From: a virus
Strand: one strand, 5' to 3'
IMG/VR virus record: IMGVR_UViG_3300036823_000006
Location: 1-25,042 of that record
DNA length: 25,042 nt
The translations under genes and the position numbers were made by a program. How positions within the stretch are numbered: the first letter of the stretch is position 1; each line of letters opens with the position of its first letter. Of this stretch, positions 6,439 to 25,042 are shown piece by piece. Under the pieces are notes generated by a model. That model searched no databases, was not told the DNA's origin, and worked only from the letters and a program-made list of their open reading frames with translations.

Positions 6439-7743
6439 TCAGCTGATAGAAACCCAGTTGCCGGCTATCTTCACTTTGGGAATGACCGACACCCAAGTAC
6501 CACCGATTCGTGCTTTCACGACACAGGGCACCCAGACACCACCAACACGAACTGAAGTTGCACTGCGTGCTGTACTGATTCCGGACAGGCCTGGTTTCTT
6601 GATGCTGATAGTGCCGGATGCTATCGGGCCGGCATGGGCAATACCGGAAAGAGTTGCTTTCTTAACGGCAATACTGCCAGTTGATGCCGTTCCAACGTGC
6701 ACTGTTCCAGAAAGAGCAGCCTTTTTGACAATGATACTGCCGGATGCTATCGGACCAGTATGCACAGAACCAGAAAGAGCTGCCTTCTTAACCGCAATAG
6801 TGCCGTTGACTGAGACAATATCTGCAGCGGAACCAGATAGTGCAGGTTTCTTAACGGCGATACTGCCATTGGCTGTAACTCCAACATGGCTTGCAGCCGA
6901 CAATGCAGGTTTCTTAACGGCGATACTGCCGTTGACTGAAACATTGTCTATAGCGGTACCAGACAGCGCAGGCTTTTTGATCGCAATGCTGCCATTGACC
7001 AGGATATTATCAGCACCAGTACCGGACAGCGAAGGCTTCTTAACAGCGATCGTGCCAGTACTTGTGATGAACGTTGGCCCTAGATAACCTTGATCTGTAA
7101 CTCCAGCATCGTCTAGGTAGAATGAAGCATTTGCGATACTTAGTGCAACTGCACCAAATCGTATCGTGCTGATAGATGTATTAGTATTGTACGTGGCCGG
7201 CGAAGTCTGTGTTTCTGTCGGTGTCAGTGAATCTGCCGTAAGGAACAACTTTACTTCGACTTGGCCAACCGTGGCTGATCCTATTACGAAGCCTTCTACA
7301 CGGAACCAGGCGCCAGTGGGAATTACAGTTGTTGTCTGGACTGTATTGGCGTTCGCAGCATCAGAAATCGAGACTTTGCCCGTGGCTGAGATTGACACCC
7401 GGGAGCATTCATTACCACTGGCATCGTCTAGCCGGACGAGGACATGTTGAGATGCCGGAAGTGCCGGAAAATATGCATAAACCCGGAACCAGGCAGTTGG
7501 TATGGTTCCTAGTTGCGCTGTCCATTTAAGAACAGCAGTAGTTGCAGTAGCCGGTGTCGTCATCTTGACGGCCATAGGCGTCCGTGTAGGATGATCTGTG
7601 CTGAACTGAATGGTCGATCCAGTTCCGGGAGTAACCGCGTCCCAGTATGCTCCCGAAGTTCCGCCGGTGTTGCCAGAACTACCTGTGGTCAGGGTGGTCC
7701 CGTTAGTGCCACCCTCAAAATCGTTAGTGAGCGTGACAGACAT
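6439..7743 (-). CDS. Virion surface/adhesin-like protein with LamG-like head and 21-residue repeats
   Basis: The 434-residue protein has three parts. Residues about 1-225 are a Thr/Ser/Gly-rich beta domain resembling a concanavalin A/LamG-type jelly roll (PTAWFRVYAYFPALPAS, GAWFRVEGFVIGSATVGQVE, then SFYLDDAGVTDQGYLG), often a carbohydrate-binding fold in phage proteins. Residues about 229-396 are eight head-to-tail repeats of 21 residues with the core G(S/T)IAVKKxxLSG. Residues about 398-434 hold three short Gly-Trp repeats (RVGGVWVPC, RIGGTWVSV, KIAGNWVSI), a pattern seen at the ends of phage tail and head fibres. The ATG at 7743 follows GAAGGGAGGG. Host-surface or glycan binding is inferred; no enzymatic motif is visible. 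Position among head genes suggests a capsid fibre rather than a tail fibre, but this is open. Confidence 0.65.
   Translation of the reverse strand: MSVTLTNDFEGGTNGTTLTTGSSGNTGGTSGAYWDAVTPGTGSTIQFSTDHPTRTPMAVKMTTPATATTAVLKWTAQLGTIPTAWFRVYAYFPALPASQHVLVRLDDASGNECSRVSISATGKVSISDAANANTVQTTTVIPTGAWFRVEGFVIGSATVGQVEVKLFLTADSLTPTETQTSPATYNTNTSISTIRFGAVALSIANASFYLDDAGVTDQGYLGPTFITSTGTIAVKKPSLSGTGADNILVNGSIAIKKPALSGTAIDNVSVNGSIAVKKPALSAASHVGVTANGSIAVKKPALSGSAADIVSVNGTIAVKKAALSGSVHTGPIASGSIIVKKAALSGTVHVGTASTGSIAVKKATLSGIAHAGPIASGTISIKKPGLSGISTARSATSVRVGGVWVPCVVKARIGGTWVSVIPKVKIAGNWVSIS
6556..7059 (-). repeat. Eight tandem 63-bp coding repeats
   Basis: The region encodes eight consecutive 21-residue units with consensus G(S/T)IAVKK(P/A)xLSG followed by a variable 9-10 residue stretch. 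Units differ by substitutions but keep length, so the array stays in frame. The variable stretches include TGADNILVN, TAIDNVSVN and SVHTGPIAS. Such an array can expand or contract by recombination. Confidence 0.85.
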
Positions 7744-10905: not shown

Positions 10906-11163
10906 CTATGCTGCTGGACGAATCGCCTTCTTGTACAATCCATTTACATTCAGAGTGCAAATCTCAGTGATCGCATCTTCGATCGAAAGATCAAGATCAG
11001 CATCTGACAAATCGACTGAAGCATTTGCAATTCGTGCAAGCAGACCAGCAGTGTCGTAGCCCATGCTGCGATCGTATGCATCCCATTCATCGTAGTTAGT
11101 GAATGGATTCCATGGATTGTCGACAGTAGTCAGCATGTGTTCGACGTTGTCGTCAGCCATCAT
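10906..11163 (-). CDS. Conserved phage protein coupled to RNA polymerase-like gene
   Basis: The 85-residue acidic protein contains DNPWNPFTNYDEWDAYDRSM, then GYDTAGLLARIANAS, and an acidic helical part ending NVNGLYKKAIRP. I recognise the DNP(W/Y)xPFTxxDEWxxxD pattern from small uncharacterised phage proteins, so it is a genuine conserved family, but its function is not known to me. The ATG at 11163 overlaps the stop of the polymerase-like gene by four bases (ATGA), which implies translational coupling and perhaps a physical or functional partnership. It is the last gene of the minus-strand replication block. Confidence 0.75.
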   Translation of the reverse strand: MMADDNVEHMLTTVDNPWNPFTNYDEWDAYDRSMGYDTAGLLARIANASVDLSDADLDLSIEDAITEICTLNVNGLYKKAIRPAA

Positions 11164-13817
11164 CCTCCTCCACGATGAAGAGCCGAGTTGAGTGTACTAA
11201 CAGGAATGCCAAGTGAATCGGCAATCTCGGCTTGTGTGTAACCTGATGCTAGTCTTGCCTTAGCAAGAGCCAACTTAGCAGGTGTCACAACAGTTGCAGT
11301 ACGTGGTGTGGCCAGTGTACGGACACGGTCAGCATCAGCATTCTCAAGTATCTGACTCAGTTTGCTGCTACTGATAGCCCCTGATTGTATGGCCTTCCAT
11401 TCGTCATCGGTGATCTGTATTTGATTTTTCTTGGCACCAACACGCTCACGAGCTGCTGTCAATGCTTGACTCTTGAGCTTCTTGAGATCTGCTGAGTCCA
11501 TACCAGGATTGTCGTGACGCCTGGCACTGACGACTACATTAGCTACTAGTTGCGCCTGTCGTTCAAGTGGTTTGTTCTTGAGTGCCAGGTTAAGTTTTGC
11601 ATTAAGTGATGAAACTTCTGAATGATACGTTTGCTTTGCAGTTGGCGAATACCTTAGTGTTCCCGCAGACAGTGCTGACTTGCGTGCACTATTGGCTAGA
11701 GCTTTAAGAGCATTCGAATGTTCTGCATAGATGTTCTCTATCGGCATCCCACTTGAGAGTGATCGCGCATCTGCTGCTTCTGCTAGTTTAGTAGACGAAG
11801 TAGTGCGAACAATAGTACGACCTCGTTTGTCTTTGAACTGTTCGCCGGTGTCTTCGTATACTTTCTCGCCAGTGTCTGAGTTTACACCACCACCTTTTGA
11901 TGCAGGCCGTGGTCTGCGACTTGGAACTCTGATCTCTGAACTGGCTCGTGATACGATAGTCGACGCACCACCAAGACGGCCAGTAGAACCACGACCCTGA
12001 TACTTCTCTTTCAGTGAGGCAATTCCATTGTCGCGATAAGATTGCTTGTAGTTGAGATTGTGTTTTTCAGCATCAATCACAACCATTGAGTGACGGACTG
12101 CTCGAGCAAGTTCGTCAGGCTGAGCACCTTTAATCGACATGTCAGTAATCAGATTTGACACGTCACCCATCTGTTGCTGCTTAGCACGAGATGAGATCGT
12201 TGCCATTCCTGGATAGGCTGGATAAGCTTCTTTAGGTTCGAAGTTCTTAAGTCCAGCTAGTGGTGCAGATGTCTTGACTTCTCGTTTATTATTCGGGATG
12301 ACGAGAACTGTGTCACCATCGAAGTCTGCACCAGACAAACGTTCAGCAACTTTCGGATGTATGCCGATAGCATCGATGGCATTACCCAATGTTGCACGAG
12401 CTTCTGCATGTTTGTTGTTTACTGTTACTTCTGGTATCTCGAATGGACCACCATGCGGGAAACGCACAAGCGCAACCTTTTCACCGTTTCGGTAATTAGG
12501 TGCGTAAATTTCTCCTTCTTTCAGCGTCTCGATTGGTAGAATGACATGCGTTCCTTGTCGCGGCAGTGCCGCAGCTTTCAGGTGAACAGACGCTGAATCT
12601 GCACTGTCAGCAAACTTGTCGAGTAGCGCTTTCTTAACGACGGGATTCGTCAGTTGCAGAATGTCGTTGTATTCGTCTTTCCTTGAAGCCAGAGCTAGAC
12701 TTAGCTGACGTTGAGCCAACGCCACACTCTGTTTCGACAAGACCTGGCTAGACAGACTGCGAGACCAGTCTTTCCAGTCTCCTTCTTCGTTCACGATGTT
12801 CATTGGTGACAGCTTGCTCTTGCCGTCTGCATCTATATAGTGACGCTGACGAATAGTGGAACCGAATGGATTCTGTTCATCCTTCTGTTCTTTCAGAGCA
12901 TCAAGCTTGTTACCGGTGTCGTGCTTGTTCGTGTTAAACATCAGATCTGTTCCAGCAGGCAGATCATTTCTGTACATCGCCATGCCTTTTAGGTAATGCG
13001 TTCCATCTACGGCGATGCGTACTTGTGCATACCTGGATGAACCGAGTGAGATGTCTTCGACTCCAGGACGCACGTAGATGACACCGTCTGCCTTGGTGCC
13101 GCCTTCTTCGGCATAACGAACACCGACACGGCTAGAAGCGACATTACGAGGAGGCTCAATACCAAGATAGGTACGGCCACCATCTTCACTATAAGCCGCG
13201 ACAGTTCTGATTTTTTCTGGATTCTTGACGATGTCGATGTATTTTGTTCCAGGAGGAGCAAGTACTTTGATCGTTGTCTTCTTGCCAGTACCGAGTTGAT
13301 CGACCTGAACATTGTGCACCTCATACTGATCTTCACGAAGAACAGCAACAGCAGTAGCTAGTTTGGTATTACTGATACCGAGATGATTCTCAGTACCTGC
13401 GCCGACATCGAGATAACCATCTTTGCCAACTTTGTCTCGCAGCAAGTTAGCTGTAGCGAGAAGGACATCTTTCTTTTCTGCTTGTGATGTGTTCAGCAGT
13501 GTGCGAACAGTAGACTCATTGAGCCCCATCCGCTGTCCGATAGCGACATTTGACATGCCTTTCGACTTCAGACGCTGAGCTTGAGCTGTGTCAGCGGCTA
13601 GTTTCTCGTTTTTTGCTATGGCACGAGCTGCCCGCAGAGCTGTCGTAGATGTGCCGAAATCATCAGCTATCTGCGTTTCAGACAAACCCTTGCTTTTCAG
13701 CTGATCGACATAGTCCAGGAAACTGCGACTCTGCTCTACACTCTGGCCAGATCCCCACGGATAGCGACCTGAACGGCGAAGAATGCCATAGTGATACAGT
13801 TCGTTAATCTCGGTCAC
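11160..13817 (-). CDS. YonO-like double-psi beta-barrel RNA polymerase-like protein with HTH domains
   Basis: The 885-residue protein carries SGADFDGDTVLVIP (residues 495-508); D498, D500 and D502 form the DxDxD metal site of multisubunit and YonO/QDE-1-type RNA polymerases. The stretch before it (EKVALVRFPHGGPFEIP, then AIDAIGIHPKVAERL) matches the layout around the NADFDGD motif of beta'. The preceding GTHVILPIETLKEGEIYAP may be part of the barrel. After it, MGDVSNLITDMSIKGAQPDE and RHSMVVIDAEKHNLNYKQS are conserved in this phage family and could be bridge or trigger elements. HTH-like segments lie at about 40-67, 83-109 and 856-882. The N-terminus has YHYGILRRSGRYPWGSG. The GTG at 13817 abuts the previous stop after GGAGG. 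It probably transcribes phage genes; activity is unproven. Confidence 0.75.
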   Translation of the reverse strand: MTEINELYHYGILRRSGRYPWGSGQSVEQSRSFLDYVDQLKSKGLSETQIADDFGTSTTALRAARAIAKNEKLAADTAQAQRLKSKGMSNVAIGQRMGLNESTVRTLLNTSQAEKKDVLLATANLLRDKVGKDGYLDVGAGTENHLGISNTKLATAVAVLREDQYEVHNVQVDQLGTGKKTTIKVLAPPGTKYIDIVKNPEKIRTVAAYSEDGGRTYLGIEPPRNVASSRVGVRYAEEGGTKADGVIYVRPGVEDISLGSSRYAQVRIAVDGTHYLKGMAMYRNDLPAGTDLMFNTNKHDTGNKLDALKEQKDEQNPFGSTIRQRHYIDADGKSKLSPMNIVNEEGDWKDWSRSLSSQVLSKQSVALAQRQLSLALASRKDEYNDILQLTNPVVKKALLDKFADSADSASVHLKAAALPRQGTHVILPIETLKEGEIYAPNYRNGEKVALVRFPHGGPFEIPEVTVNNKHAEARATLGNAIDAIGIHPKVAERLSGADFDGDTVLVIPNNKREVKTSAPLAGLKNFEPKEAYPAYPGMATISSRAKQQQMGDVSNLITDMSIKGAQPDELARAVRHSMVVIDAEKHNLNYKQSYRDNGIASLKEKYQGRGSTGRLGGASTIVSRASSEIRVPSRRPRPASKGGGVNSDTGEKVYEDTGEQFKDKRGRTIVRTTSSTKLAEAADARSLSSGMPIENIYAEHSNALKALANSARKSALSAGTLRYSPTAKQTYHSEVSSLNAKLNLALKNKPLERQAQLVANVVVSARRHDNPGMDSADLKKLKSQALTAARERVGAKKNQIQITDDEWKAIQSGAISSSKLSQILENADADRVRTLATPRTATVVTPAKLALAKARLASGYTQAEIADSLGIPVSTLNSALHRGGG

Positions 13818-18304: not shown

Positions 18305-18587
18305 CAGGCAGCACTCCTGCTCCCCTGAGTTGCTGGTAGATGTCGGTTGCCATCTTGCGGTTCAGCCCAGCCTTGTTCAGGACGAGCACCACACTGATGG
18401 CCGTCTCAAGCATCATGTCGACGTCCTGCCAGCGCTCGGCATCGTTGATCTCTATCGTTGCCTGGATAGTGTTGACGATGTCATCGAGCCAACGTTCCCG
18501 GTCGTCGCCTTTGACTCCGAATGCCCAGGCTTCCCGCACACTTGTCTGAGCACGCAGGGCCTCGCGGAGCTCTTCATTTGTAGCCAT
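18288..18587 (-). CDS. Small helical protein, tandem paralogue
   Basis: The ATG at 18587 follows GGAGGAATA and overlaps the stop of the SSB-like gene by one base; the frame extends further upstream but without such a site. The 99-residue product begins MATNEELREALRAQTSVREA, then DDRERWLDDIVNTIQATIEI, and ends RGAGVLPDGYIR. Its first half matches the following gene product, indicating duplication and divergence. No functional motif is visible. Location next to the SSB-like gene suggests an accessory replication or host-takeover role, unproven. Confidence 0.7.
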   Translation of the reverse strand: MATNEELREALRAQTSVREAWAFGVKGDDRERWLDDIVNTIQATIEINDAERWQDVDMMLETAISVVLVLNKAGLNRKMATDIYQQLRGAGVLPDGYIR

Positions 18588-19090
18588 TATTCCTCCGGTT
18601 CGTCGTGCGACATCACAGCGACAGCTGCAGAGTCTGGCACGTCGTAGTATTTCTTCTCGAGTTCGTCTTCGCGGATGGTTACATAGATGGATTTGAGGTA
18701 GGCTTTGACTCCTGTCCGGCCGTTCACCTCCCACTCGTATGGACGGACGATCATGTCGACGTTCTCGATCTCAGCCCAGTCCAGCAAGCTGACCATGCTC
18801 TCATCGAGTGACGTCTTTCCGCGACTGGTGATCAGCATGATCTTGGGAGGATTCTTGCCGAAGTGGACTGAGACTTCCAGTCTTGGCTGTGGCGGCTCGT
18901 CTTCCTCACGAGGCTGCAGGTACTTCACGTTCCAGCCGTCCTCGAGCATCAACACAGCTTCCTCATCCTGAAGCAGGACGTTGAAATTGCGCTGGCCTGC
19001 TGCGTTGAACCGTCCTTCTTCACCAGAGAAGTTACGAAACAGGATACGGCGATTCTCAAGGACGACTGGATTCAACCTGGCTGCAGGCAT
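18587..19090 (-). CDS. Single-stranded DNA-binding-like protein
   Basis: The 167-residue product has the layout of a phage protein family annotated as SSB-like: RRILFRNFSGEEGRFN, AAGQRNFNVLL, MLEDGWNVKYLQPREEDEPP, NPPKIMLITSRGKTSL, then ENVDMIVRPYEWEVNGRTGV and AYLKSIYVTI, ending in an acidic tail (SHDEPEE), as SSB proteins often do. It would coat single strands during replication. The ATG at 19090 is two bases from the upstream stop with only a weak ribosome binding site, so coupled translation is likely. It sits a few genes downstream of the helicase-primase-polymerase gene. The SSB role is family-based and not visible from a catalytic motif. Confidence 0.72.
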   Translation of the reverse strand: MPAARLNPVVLENRRILFRNFSGEEGRFNAAGQRNFNVLLQDEEAVLMLEDGWNVKYLQPREEDEPPQPRLEVSVHFGKNPPKIMLITSRGKTSLDESMVSLLDWAEIENVDMIVRPYEWEVNGRTGVKAYLKSIYVTIREDELEKKYYDVPDSAAVAVMSHDEPEE

Positions 19091-19985: not shown

Positions 19986-20132
19986 TTACTTTTTCTTCTT
20001 GCCTTCTTGTTTCTCGATCTTGCGCTGGATCTTCTTGAGATCCTCTTCTTCCTTCTTTTTTGATATGATTCCGGTTTGCTTGATTGCCTCTTTCTTCAGC
20101 TCTTCTTTAAGCTTTTCCTCTTCGTCACTCAC
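19986..20132 (-). CDS. 48-residue Lys/Glu-rich coiled-coil peptide
   Basis: The GTG at 20132 overlaps the stop of the polymerase fusion gene by four bases (GTGA) and follows AGGAGCGGAG. The product reads SDEEEKLKEELKKEAIKQTG then IISKKKEEEDLKKIQRKIEK and ends GKKKK, almost entirely Lys, Glu, Asp and hydrophobic residues in heptad-like spacing. Its coupling to the replication enzyme suggests it may be an accessory peptide of that protein, by inference. The intact reading frame, coupled start and following Shine-Dalgarno sequence of the next gene support it as real. Confidence 0.65.
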   Translation of the reverse strand: MSDEEEKLKEELKKEAIKQTGIISKKKEEEDLKKIQRKIEKQEGKKKK

Positions 20133-23100
20133 CGATTTTCTCCGCTCCTGAATTGCCCGGCATCTCCGAACTTGGATATGCTCTCGAGTGCTGCTTCTGC
20201 CAGTTTCCTGAAATATGACAGATCGATGGAGTCTTCTAGTCCTGACTCCTTGACCATTGCCGATTCCATCCAGAAGTATCCCTTTGTGCCGGCAGCAGCG
20301 TGGAATACTCCGTCCTTTCCCCGAAGGAGCGTAGCACCTCCAGCTCCCTCCTGGACTGGAACAAAGCTGCCAGCACGGCCGACAAAGTGCGGCTCGTCAT
20401 ATCCGAAATCCAGGTACAGGGCTGCCGAGGTGACTGTCTTGATTTCGCAGTAGTCATCGAACGTGACCGGCTCACGGCTGAACAGGGTCTTGAAGACATA
20501 AGGATGCTGGAACTGAGCACCAGTCGCAGTCCATTCACCGTTCTGCCGCCTCGCGATGTACACCGCGTCATTGACAAGGCAGAACTTCTGGTATGTGGCT
20601 TCATGCTCGAACTCATAGCCGTACTCTTTCCCGAAGTCGATTACGTACTGAATGATCTTTGGTGTGGCATTCGGGATCTTGATCGAATCTGTCTTGATGT
20701 GCACGACCTGGAAACCGTTGGCCTGTACCATCTCTTTCAAGTCGACCATAAAGAGAGCACCGCGCTTGCAGCCGATGTTGTCTTTGTTACGGACATCACG
20801 GAACGGGTTCGGGAATGTTGCGAAGGTCAGGCCGTAGACGATGTTGATGACAATCTTCAGCGCGTACGCCAGAGCTGTTGCATTCTCGTCTGTGTCAAGA
20901 TATGGGACAAGCGCTCCTCCGAGCATGCGCTTGGCTGCACTGTAATCGTGACGTTTGATTGCGATTCGCGCTGACTTGAGATCTGAATAATTCTTTGTAT
21001 AAGGGCCAAACAGGCGCAGTATCTCAATCGACGTTGGATGCATAGACGCGACATCGAGCACCGCGACGTCAGCATACATGCCGGGTTCAGCATAGACGTA
21101 ACCTCCTTCCCCAGTTACCTCGCCCTTGTATGTGCTGGTGCCAGCCTCGTAGTGATAGCCGGGAAATGTGTCAGCCAGGTCCGTGTAGATGAACTGGTCC
21201 TGCGGGTTCTTGTTGTCACCAAAGATGATCTTAGCCGTGTGCCGCTGAGTTGTGTCATTCACGAGCAGGCCGCTGAGATCGGCAAGTATCTGCCTGGCGA
21301 CGTAATCCTGCTTCCGGTCTTCGAAGACCTGTTCGGTGGTGATGACGTCATTGGCACAGTAGCTGGCGACGTCTTCCCACCGGTCTTCTGGCACTGGCTG
21401 ATCCCAGGGCAGACTGAGCTCTTTGTGATTGAGTCCGAGCTTGATCTGGAACCATTTAAGCGACTTCTTGACGCTAGAGAAGTCCCAGATGTCCGCATAT
21501 GACAGGTTATATGCGTCACCGAAAGTGGCATTCTTCTCGTTTGCGATGACTCGCTGACTGAGCTGGAAGAGATCATAGTTGCTGTAGCCCATGATCCGGG
21601 CGTATACCATGTGGTTGTCATAACGCCGGTTGTTAAACCCGACAAGGCGCATGGCAGTCAGCTCTTCCATCTGCTTGCTGCCAGGGTTGATCATCCTGAC
21701 TGTCTGGCTCTCGCCTTCGTACTTCCAGCAAACAACGAACAGGTTCGGGAAAACCTCAATGTCGAAGAACACGAGTCGTTCATCAGCAGTCTGCCTGGCT
21801 GGTTCTTCCTTGACGACAGCCACTTCAGTCTCTGAAGCGAACTTCATGCTCATGACGGCTTTGACACAGTAGGACGCCTGATTGGTGGACCCGTTTGCGA
21901 ATGCCAGAATCCTGCCTCGCATGTCCGTCACATCGTACTGCATCCCTGACGACCAGGCCTCGTCAAGAATCTTCGTGATGAAGTCAATGCTTGGCTTGGT
22001 TCCTGGATGTATCTCTTTCCGCAAGTTCCTCTGTATCAGTTCGCGCAAAGCTCGTTCACTGTGCATGGTATCTGAGTCAAGCACACGCCTCTCCTTAAGT
22101 GGCAGGCCACCATTGATCGTCGTGACGGGAATGTCATTGCACATCGTCAGACGGCGCCTGAGTGAGGCATCGTCTGGAAACGTCTTGACTTCAATCCCAG
22201 GGCTGTAGTTATGACTCAGCACTGAGACGTCACCGTCGTAGATGTAGTGGAGATGAATGCCTGCACCGCTCTGACTGAATTCGGCGTATGTCGATGGCCA
22301 CATGCTTGCAGCCTCAAGATTCAGAGCCAGATTTTTCTGACCATCATTGTCCCTCAGATCGAAGTCAATGACTATGTACTGCAGGTCCAGCTTGACATAG
22401 TGAAGCTCAGAGGTAGTCATGTCTGACAGAGTTGTCTTCACTTTTGCCCAGGGCTTTCCTGGTTTGCCATCTTCAGTTGCATACTGCGCCGGCTGGCTTG
22501 CGAGCAATTCATCCAGCAAAGATTCCTTGCATGTCATCACAAGGGAAGGCGGCAGTTTATCCGGTGGCGGGGTTATGCCGAGCTTCTCGATTTTGAATCC
22601 AGTGTACAAGTTCGTGACCTGGACACCGTCAACCCGGCCGCGCTCTGCAAAATGGCTGAAGTAGTTCCTGAGCTCATCACGGAAGCGACCCAGGTTTAGT
22701 CTCCAATCGTACTCGCCATCGTCGCAGAATGCTTTGTAGAGTCCCCAGGCTTGCTTCAGGGTCGTGCCATCCTGCTGCCTGAAGAGCTCATATTCCTCGG
22801 TCAGGAAGTTGTAGAACATGTCCGTCCGGATTATCATGTCAGTTGGGCGGTATGATGAGAACCTGTTCGGGCCAAGAGACCGGTAGACCTCCAGGCAATG
22901 CTGGGCAATGGCACCAAGCTCAAAACCAATCTCATGCTTGAGTGCCTCGTATTCACTTGACGGTACAGTATGACCTGTTGGGTGAACATCGATCAGCCTG
23001 CGGATAATGCCTGACTTGGCGTCCGTGATCTTGACTGACTGGTTGGTTCCTATGAAGAGCAGAGCATTAACTCTGCCGGTATACGGCGCCTTGTACTTGG

Positions 23101-23854
23101 CATTTATGATAATCTCCTCGTGAGAGACTATCGAGTTCAGCCTTGTGTTGTCGTCTATCCGTGACAAGTCACCGTCGTGCTGGATTGCTACTAGCGGGTT
23201 TGTCTTGAATGACTCAGTTGCGAATGCGTTCGACGTGCCAGTCAGGGCTTTTGCATCGAAGGTCTCTGTGTACCCGTCAAAGAGTCTTTTCAGGATGTTC
23301 AGGAACGTCGACTTGCCAGTCCCAGCTTCTCCGTACAGGACGAAGAACTTCTGAATATGCTTCGAGTCTCCTGCGACAATTGACCCTATTGCCCATTCCA
23401 GCTTCTCCAGCTCAGACGGTGCATACAGCACGCTCATCAAGTGATCGTAAGCTGTAGTTGATCCACTGGCGAGCGAATAAGGAAGTCGCTTAGAGCTGTA
23501 ATCTCCTTTCTTTGGCGGCGTGTCTGCAAATGCCAGGGTATTGTCAAGCTCCTGGTTCGAACTCGGCAAGTTCACGCAGTAACTTCTGAAGTCTTTCCAG
23601 GAGTTTGATTTGTAGCTGCTGAGTGCACGGACTGTTGTATGATCGTCAATTTTCTCAGCTCGAGCATAAAGGTCAGCATCGACCAGGCGCTGCACTACAA
23701 ACTCATCGGTGGACCACAGGCCAGCTTCTTCATCCCACACCGCACAGAAGGAACCGCCGCGAACTATCAGGTCTTGCGATCTGCGCACGACAAAGTCTGG
23801 ATACAACTCGGTCCCGGACTTTGCCTGCCTCTCCCTGACCTGAAAGAAATCCAC
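20129..23854 (-). CDS. SF3 helicase - AEP primase - family B DNA polymerase fusion
   Basis: One 1241-residue frame holds three replication enzymes. About 20-130 resembles a D5-type N-terminal domain. About 150-300 is a superfamily 3 helicase with Walker A GEAGTGKST (175-183), acidic IQHDGDLSRIDD, sensor LLFIGTNQ and arginine finger GIIRRLIDV. About 460-590 is an archaeo-eukaryotic primase/polymerase domain: VIDFDLRD (D497, D499), SQSGAGIHLHY (H534) and GIEVKTFPDDASLRRR. About 690-850 is a 3'-5' exonuclease: Exo I FFDIEVFP, Exo II FNNRRYDNH, Exo III YCANDVITT. About 925-1110 is family B polymerase: motif A VLDVASMHP (D934), motif B KIVINIVYG, motif C HIKTDS (D1056), which lacks the first Asp of YxDTDS. 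The GTG at 23854 follows GGGAGGGAGG. It could unwind, prime, extend and proofread from one chain; no mature cleavage site is evident. Confidence 0.88.
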   Translation of the reverse strand: MDFFQVRERQAKSGTELYPDFVVRRSQDLIVRGGSFCAVWDEEAGLWSTDEFVVQRLVDADLYARAEKIDDHTTVRALSSYKSNSWKDFRSYCVNLPSSNQELDNTLAFADTPPKKGDYSSKRLPYSLASGSTTAYDHLMSVLYAPSELEKLEWAIGSIVAGDSKHIQKFFVLYGEAGTGKSTFLNILKRLFDGYTETFDAKALTGTSNAFATESFKTNPLVAIQHDGDLSRIDDNTRLNSIVSHEEIIINAKYKAPYTGRVNALLFIGTNQSVKITDAKSGIIRRLIDVHPTGHTVPSSEYEALKHEIGFELGAIAQHCLEVYRSLGPNRFSSYRPTDMIIRTDMFYNFLTEEYELFRQQDGTTLKQAWGLYKAFCDDGEYDWRLNLGRFRDELRNYFSHFAERGRVDGVQVTNLYTGFKIEKLGITPPPDKLPPSLVMTCKESLLDELLASQPAQYATEDGKPGKPWAKVKTTLSDMTTSELHYVKLDLQYIVIDFDLRDNDGQKNLALNLEAASMWPSTYAEFSQSGAGIHLHYIYDGDVSVLSHNYSPGIEVKTFPDDASLRRRLTMCNDIPVTTINGGLPLKERRVLDSDTMHSERALRELIQRNLRKEIHPGTKPSIDFITKILDEAWSSGMQYDVTDMRGRILAFANGSTNQASYCVKAVMSMKFASETEVAVVKEEPARQTADERLVFFDIEVFPNLFVVCWKYEGESQTVRMINPGSKQMEELTAMRLVGFNNRRYDNHMVYARIMGYSNYDLFQLSQRVIANEKNATFGDAYNLSYADIWDFSSVKKSLKWFQIKLGLNHKELSLPWDQPVPEDRWEDVASYCANDVITTEQVFEDRKQDYVARQILADLSGLLVNDTTQRHTAKIIFGDNKNPQDQFIYTDLADTFPGYHYEAGTSTYKGEVTGEGGYVYAEPGMYADVAVLDVASMHPTSIEILRLFGPYTKNYSDLKSARIAIKRHDYSAAKRMLGGALVPYLDTDENATALAYALKIVINIVYGLTFATFPNPFRDVRNKDNIGCKRGALFMVDLKEMVQANGFQVVHIKTDSIKIPNATPKIIQYVIDFGKEYGYEFEHEATYQKFCLVNDAVYIARRQNGEWTATGAQFQHPYVFKTLFSREPVTFDDYCEIKTVTSAALYLDFGYDEPHFVGRAGSFVPVQEGAGGATLLRGKDGVFHAAAGTKGYFWMESAMVKESGLEDSIDLSYFRKLAEAALESISKFGDAGQFRSGENR

Positions 23855-23873
23855 TGGCGCCTCCCTCCCATGT

Positions 23874-24395
23874 CTAGTACATCTCGTTTTCGGTCATGTA
23901 TGCTGCCATCTGATACCAGAGTTCAACGTCTCTCTGGTCTTGCTCTGGTCTTTGCAGCGGGAATAGACCACCTCTTCCATCGGATTTGTAAGTACGATTA
24001 CTGAACCGTGCAAGGACATGATCGATATGCCGCAATGGAATTGGCGGGCAGGCATCATCATCGAAGACATCCAGATTCAGGTTTTCGAGAAACAAGGCGA
24101 AACACGAATGTACTGGCCAGTCGATCATGAAATCCATTCGCCTGGCTAGCCCAATCAGCAACTCAAGGATACTGACGCCTGGGGAAAATCGTTCTTCTCG
24201 CTCCAGTCCAGTGAATTCCTTGCGAAGCTGGGCAGCATCAGCTATACGGTTCTCATCACGAGGATTAACAACACGAAACTGCATGTCGTACATCCTGCCG
24301 CAAACTATCGTATAGCTTTGCGACGACTCCGGGTGAAATGGAGGACAGATCTGACTGTACAGCCAGTCAAAGTACATTTGTGTTCTGACTGGCAT
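23874..24395 (-). CDS. Conserved phage protein in replication block, unknown function
   Basis: The 173-residue product contains YFDWLYSQICP, QFRVVNPRDENRIADAAQLR, SPGVSILELLIGLARRMDFM, FALFLENLNLDVFDDD and a C-terminal GRGGLFPLQRPEQDQRDVEL followed by WYQMAAYM. I recognise this chain of motifs from an uncharacterised family found in Gram-positive phages near replication genes. The GGLFPL..P..DQR..ELWYQM signature is distinctive. No enzymatic motif is clear. The ATG overlaps the previous stop by one base (TAATG) and the stop is 19 bases before the polymerase fusion start, so all three are in one operon. Confidence 0.72.
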   Translation of the reverse strand: MPVRTQMYFDWLYSQICPPFHPESSQSYTIVCGRMYDMQFRVVNPRDENRIADAAQLRKEFTGLEREERFSPGVSILELLIGLARRMDFMIDWPVHSCFALFLENLNLDVFDDDACPPIPLRHIDHVLARFSNRTYKSDGRGGLFPLQRPEQDQRDVELWYQMAAYMTENEMY

Positions 24396-25042
24396 TATCC
24401 CCCCCGGTTTGGCCGCCCGTAGTTGAGGACCTCGTTTGCGTAGGTTCCGCTGTTGAGTATCACCTCGAAATCCACTGCGAGCATTTCATTCCGGATGTAG
24501 CAGATATGCGGATCTCCTGACAGACCTCCGAAACTCAGAGGTGAGATAGCACCGACGACTTTGATGACGTCACGGATGGGCAGGCTTTTGTCATCGACAA
24601 GGATGCGATCGCCGGCATAGTACGTGACAGTGAGGCACTGAGACCCGGGAGGCGTTTCGGAAAACTCGGCAAGCGAAATCCGGTACGGCCGCTTAGAGCT
24701 GGCTTCTTGTGCTTTGGCGAATAGGTTGGCAGTGGGTGCCGTATCGTTCTGGAGCGCGAGCTCGTCGGCTTCTGCGAGTTCTTCATCGGTGGGTAGTCCT
24801 TCGAGTGGATCATCTGATTTGAAGTGAGTGACATCGGCTGGCGTGAGTTCTGGCCTGGGGTCTCCCACGGCGGCAACCCCGTCGTCTGTGTCACTACTCT
24901 GCACGGCCATGTCGGGCTGGCCAACGTAAGGACTGCCGGTCTCGAGGAATTGCTTGGCCTGCTTGTTGTAGTGGGCCTTGACGCGGGCGACCTCTTCATC
25001 AAGTCTCCGGTCAAAGCTGGCCCGGAGATTGCGACGAGCAAG
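24395..25042 (-). CDS. Unknown protein, 5' end beyond window
   Basis: The frame is open from the stop at 24395 to the right edge, giving at least 215 residues. An ATG at 24910 exists, but the upstream 44 codons also look coding (SFDRRLDEEVARVKAHYNKQ, then FLETGSPYVG), and no ribosome binding site precedes 24910, so the gene is most likely truncated by the window. The visible part has a charged helical start, a disordered acidic middle (DPLEGLPTDEELAEADELAL) and a beta-rich C-terminal domain with QCLTVTYYAGDRILVDDK and FGGLSGDPHICYIRNEMLAV. Family not recognised. Confidence 0.65.
   Translation of the reverse strand, partial: LARRNLRASFDRRLDEEVARVKAHYNKQAKQFLETGSPYVGQPDMAVQSSDTDDGVAAVGDPRPELTPADVTHFKSDDPLEGLPTDEELAEADELALQNDTAPTANLFAKAQEASSKRPYRISLAEFSETPPGSQCLTVTYYAGDRILVDDKSLPIRDVIKVVGAISPLSFGGLSGDPHICYIRNEMLAVDFEVILNSGTYANEVLNYGRPNRGG

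Follow-up and report, generated by a model that had tools for sequence, protein, structure and literature searches.

Does one open reading frame in this viral DNA encode a helicase, a primase and a proofreading DNA polymerase as a single chain in that order, and is such an arrangement new? In the window, by which we mean the whole stretch of 25,042 nucleotides that was analyzed, the frame starts with GTG and is preceded by what its sequence suggests is a strong ribosome-binding site:

20129..23854, (-) strand: fused replicase ORF, HelPrimPolB type (phrog_4210), 1241 aa, single intact frame
23860..23869, (-) strand: ribosome-binding site GGGAGGGAGG, 5 nt before the GTG start, read from the sequence

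A PHROG search returned phrog_4210 ("DNA polymerase") as the best family match over residues 1-1238 (E=0), and Pfam detects solely the helicase (DUF5906) in the 1241-residue protein. The chain has three parts: an N-terminal region with an SF3 helicase (residues 1-430), an archaeo-eukaryotic primase (AEP) core with a putative helical accessory domain (residues ~440-675), and an exonuclease-PolB (residues ~694-1241). All motifs named in the original prediction are present in the one frame and in the predicted order, a set far beyond chance, and the domain order helicase, primase, PolB is borne out by motifs, profiles and modelled folds alike. In a model of residues 1-1200 (pLDDT 85.9, pTM 0.49) the modules are folded and the linkers at 431-435 and 676-688, together with a stretch at 589-595, are poorly predicted; the pTM of 0.49 marks low prediction confidence for the placement of the domains relative to each other.

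The helicase module comprises the following features:

22565..23854, (-) strand: N-terminal region and SF3 helicase, residues 1-430 (profile, motifs, conservation)
23306-23332, (-) strand: SF3 Walker A, residues 175-183
23162-23179, (-) strand: SF3 Walker B
23039-23050, (-) strand: SF3 sensor-1 Asn 271
22997-23002, (-) strand: SF3 Arg pair 285/286

The helicase core is preceded by a conserved region at the N terminus (residues 1-130), and a profile of 65 relatives searched against solved structures aligned in its helicase part with the SaPI primase-helicase 7ola (E=1e-9). At the other end of the chain lie the exonuclease and polymerase:

21215..21775, (-) strand: 3'-5' exonuclease, residues ~694-880 (motifs, conservation, fold)
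21743-21769, (-) strand: Exo I, residues 698-700
21611-21640, (-) strand: Exo II, residues 739-748
21344-21361, (-) strand: Exo III, residues 832-837
20132..21163, (-) strand: family B polymerase, residues ~898-1241 (motifs, profile, fold)
21026-21058, (-) strand: Pol motif A, residues 933-943, with His at the steric-gate position
20828-20863, (-) strand: Pol motif B, residues 998-1009
20675-20701, (-) strand: Pol motif C KTDS, residues 1052-1060

With Exo I-III and Pol A-C motifs all present, this part is a family B DNA polymerase with exonuclease, as predicted: the same profile matched E. coli Pol II across motifs A to C (E=4e-7), and the best PDB matches of the 1-1200 model are family B polymerases. 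Motif C reads K-T-D-S, not D-T-D-S. Motifs A and B are separated by 66 residues (D934 to K1000), a spacing too short for insertions of the TPR1/TPR2 type, which are absent between them, whereas protein-primed and primer-independent PolBs (phi29, piPolB) have such insertions. In phi29-type protein-primed polymerases the insertions confer strand displacement of their own, and the 66-residue gap therefore points to a PolB without the insertions that give intrinsic strand displacement.

The supposition that this domain order was undescribed proved wrong. A HelPrimPolB group, with an SF3 helicase and a PrimPol N-terminal to PolB, was named in 2020, and the fusion was there credited to earlier work (Kazlauskas 2020, PMC7544198); the group is defined by architecture, and the window protein shares with it the domain architecture and an atypical motif C, with no differences found. 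Biochemistry followed in 2025 with the purification of GP55 of Lactococcus phage 1706, a "four-in-one replicase" with helicase, primase, DNA polymerase and 3'-5' exonuclease activities (Zhang et al. 2025, PMC12205980). GP55 is a dimer; its unwinding depends on UTP/dTTP, its RNA priming prefers GTP and occurs at CCAAC, and it copies M13 ssDNA in full (PMC12205980). Its new helical accessory domain (aHD) replaces the PrimPol helix bundle and is essential for priming, and a D509A mutant is primase-deficient (PMC12205980). Strand displacement by GP55 is mostly lost on deletion of the helicase domain, and unwinding is nearly abolished on deletion of PolB (PMC12205980), which by analogy supports the predicted coupling of unwinding to synthesis through physical linkage in the window protein.

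In a full-length alignment GP55 and the window protein share 39.8% identity, with the same order of domains and a similar length (1241 aa, against 1317 aa in GP55). The seven GP55 residues examined are all identical here (GP55/window numbering: K189/K181, D509/D499, Y655/Y640, F667/F652, D712/D698, E714/E700 and D949/D934), but at only 40% identity the window protein may differ from GP55 in the nucleotide it prefers, in where it primes and in its oligomeric state. Actinophage proteins annotated "DNA primase/polymerase" (Gordonia phage Petito gp64, Arthrobacter phage Circum gp63, Rhodococcus phage ReqiPoco6 gp72) are ~50-60% identical to it end to end and have mostly the same flanking genes on both sides, leaving sequence divergence as the sole difference. 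NrS-1 polymerase, pRN1 ORF904 and the SaPI primase (7ola) share the AEP and helicase folds, but they place the primase first and the helicase second and have no PolB, whereas the window protein is helicase-first. Sequence comparison thus places the window protein among the known, characterized HelPrimPolB/GP55-type replicases, with its activities assigned by homology; because a helicase-primase-polymerase fusion in this order has already been published and tested, the architecture itself adds nothing new.

By analogy with GP55, we propose that the ORF very probably encodes the replicase of the phage itself and is orthologous to GP55 (HelPrimPolB), with a GP55-like helicase-primase-PolB mechanism. 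The N-terminal SF3 helicase domain would dimerize the protein and open the duplex at the expense of a nucleoside triphosphate, which in GP55 is UTP or dTTP; the AEP core and helical accessory domain would prime the exposed strand with a short stretch of RNA, and PolB would extend the primer while its exonuclease proofreads. Strand displacement, which the compact PolB lacks by itself, would presumably come from the helicase, as in GP55, so that unwinding and synthesis would be coupled within one protein.

We infer from the same analogy that the window protein acts like GP55 and as the main replicase of its phage; its genomic surroundings bear on the second part of this claim:

23874..24395, (-) strand: upstream gene, phrog_4678, predicted protein without assigned function
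24395..25042, (-) strand: second upstream gene, phrog_4695, predicted protein without assigned function, cut by the window end
18587..19090, (-) strand: single-strand annealing/putative ssDNA-binding protein, phrog_4787, PF24083, downstream of the fusion

Of the 143 loci with enough upstream DNA, 137 have the phrog_4678 gene ahead of the fusion; this conserved gene was not found beside GP55. The phrog_4787 (PF24083) gene was found downstream in 150 searched loci, and its putative product is likely the ssDNA-binding partner of the fused replicase. The neighborhood includes recombination genes (the single-strand annealing protein, an exonuclease, an SNF2-like helicase), as might be expected if the fusion served as an accessory enzyme in repair or re-priming while the host replisome did the bulk of replication. 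We regard that arrangement as improbable, given that GP55 replicates M13 ssDNA fully (PMC12205980), that the fusion of a helicase to a PolB with proofreading suits bulk synthesis better, and that 12 complete phages carrying the fusion have no family match to another replicative polymerase, primase or helicase. That comparison covered six Pfam families in the 12 complete genomes, the window record being an incomplete 25 kb: DnaB, DnaG N-terminal, PolA, beta clamp and OB-fold SSB gave no family match, and PF09250 matched inside the fusion only. The fusion being the sole replicative core of the 12 phages is consistent with these results.

Two other frames of the window may be recorded here. An 885-aa protein (11160-13817) that contains helix-turn-helix segments as well as an SGADFDGD motif matches phrog_4291 "RNA-dependent RNA polymerase"; it is a candidate single-chain RNA polymerase that may be of the YonO/crAss type, which it resembles. 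In Petito, a gene of similar size after the Cas4 exonuclease (gp92) is annotated merely as a helix-turn-helix protein. A 718-aa open frame at 385-2541 on the (+) strand, which overlaps the head maturation protease/major head gene (469-2496, (-) strand) in antisense, matches no PHROG and is likely to be spurious.

The primase is the module least visible to sequence searches, with no match of the AEP fold in Pfam and no significant match by sequence profile against the PDB:

22091..22537, (-) strand: AEP (PriS-like) primase core, residues 440-588 (motifs, conservation, modelled fold)
22349-22366, (-) strand: AEP motif I DFD, residues 497-502
22247-22270, (-) strand: AEP motif II SGAGIHLH, residues 529-536
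22184-22198, (-) strand: AEP motif III GIEVK, residues 553-557
21830..22066, (-) strand: putative counterpart of the alpha-helical accessory domain (aHD) of GP55, residues ~597-675 (alignment and model)

This invisibility, and a third acidic residue in motif III that is Glu (E555) rather than Asp, would suit a degenerate structural linker in a helicase-polymerase fusion primed by another enzyme or by the host. We consider such a linker very improbable. Because the segment lacks a significant sequence match to a solved structure, residues 436-692 were folded separately; the AF2 model has a pLDDT of 92.5, and in a structure search all ten PDB matches at E<=0.001 were the NrS-1 and pRN1 ORF904 primase-polymerases, confirming the AEP fold that the profiles miss. 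Residues D497, D499, H534, E555, K557 and R566 are invariant in 157/157 aligned sequences, the GP55 segment homologous to it synthesizes RNA primers and is made primase-deficient by D509A (PMC12205980), and PF09250 Prim-Pol matched weakly within the fused frame in three relatives. In the alignment Y640 pairs with GP55 Y655 and F652 with GP55 F667; helices 165-233 of the 436-692 model, likened to the GP55 aHD by placement, lie in the equivalent position with both essential aromatics present.

Distant phages do encode PolB and AEP-SF3 separately, but the chance that assembly or sequencing joined separate genes here is negligible, as the same chain occurs in 252 phage records and is unbroken in 155 of the 156 IMG/VR loci retrieved (~148 contigs). 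The 252 records, in which at least 80% of the chain is covered, are among 379 phage records matched by tblastn; the full-length matches among those listed are mostly from Gordonia, Arthrobacter and Streptomyces phages and are usually annotated "DNA primase/polymerase". The IMG/VR relatives (at least 156 loci on ~148 distinct contigs, from two profile scans, translated) retain the catalytic residues of all three modules in 155-156 of 156 cases. Across those aligned, the Walker lysine, the sensor Asn, both Arg and AEP D497/D499/H534/E555 are invariant, as are exonuclease D698/E700/D746/D836; polymerase D934 and D1056 are likewise invariant in the sequences that cover this region. Since the frames are unbroken and the catalytic residues invariant, the fusion is real, common and apparently active throughout. 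A pattern scan of bacterial genomes found no homologues.

One IMG/VR locus (L166) has a single in-frame stop (7240-7242) between the exonuclease and polymerase parts, either an error or a real break. For Streptomyces phage Bing, a gene split or interrupted by an intein was considered and rejected, gp64 being an intact fusion; Bing gp60 (L005:983-1438) is a separate 151-aa truncated helicase-domain paralogue upstream of gp64.

Separate genes in close relatives, which the original prediction had named as grounds for doubting the fusion, are excluded: every examined relative above ~35% identity has a single chain, and separate genes were seen only in distant relatives (~23-25% identity in PolB). 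In Listeria phage P40 (gp31/gp32) PolB is directly followed by an AEP-SF3 primase gene, and in Paenibacillus phage Wanderer (gp63/gp68) the two genes lie a few genes apart. Both phages have the same three functions and a distantly related PolB, but in separate genes, with the primase before the helicase and a gate Tyr. Because the primase precedes the helicase in their primase gene, the difference from the fused chain is one of rearrangement and not of fusion alone; we found no intermediate between the two arrangements. An AEP profile placed the motifs of the unfused P40 and Wanderer primases in register, although the match was not significant (probability 2.6%, E=0.018).

In family B polymerases a nearly universal steric-gate Tyr in motif A excludes ribonucleotides. 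In the window protein motif A reads DVASMHP, and H939 occupies the place of this Tyr, aligning with the Tyr of Pol II SLYP. His stands at the gate in every fused member examined that covers the position, and Tyr in the four unfused relatives sampled (P40, Wanderer, phiSHEF11 and a crAss-like phage). A literature search for a steric-gate histidine found no relevant paper, and the GP55 paper does not mention one (PMC12205980). We suggest, tentatively, that H939 and the KTDS motif C might together be an adaptation to the adjacent RNA primase, through altered ribonucleotide discrimination or acceptance of the very short RNA primers that the chain itself makes. The gate His is the unexplored, testable feature that the window protein adds to a family of one-chain replicases that occur commonly in phages of actinobacteria, in soil and elsewhere, and are found also in lactococcal and human-associated phages.
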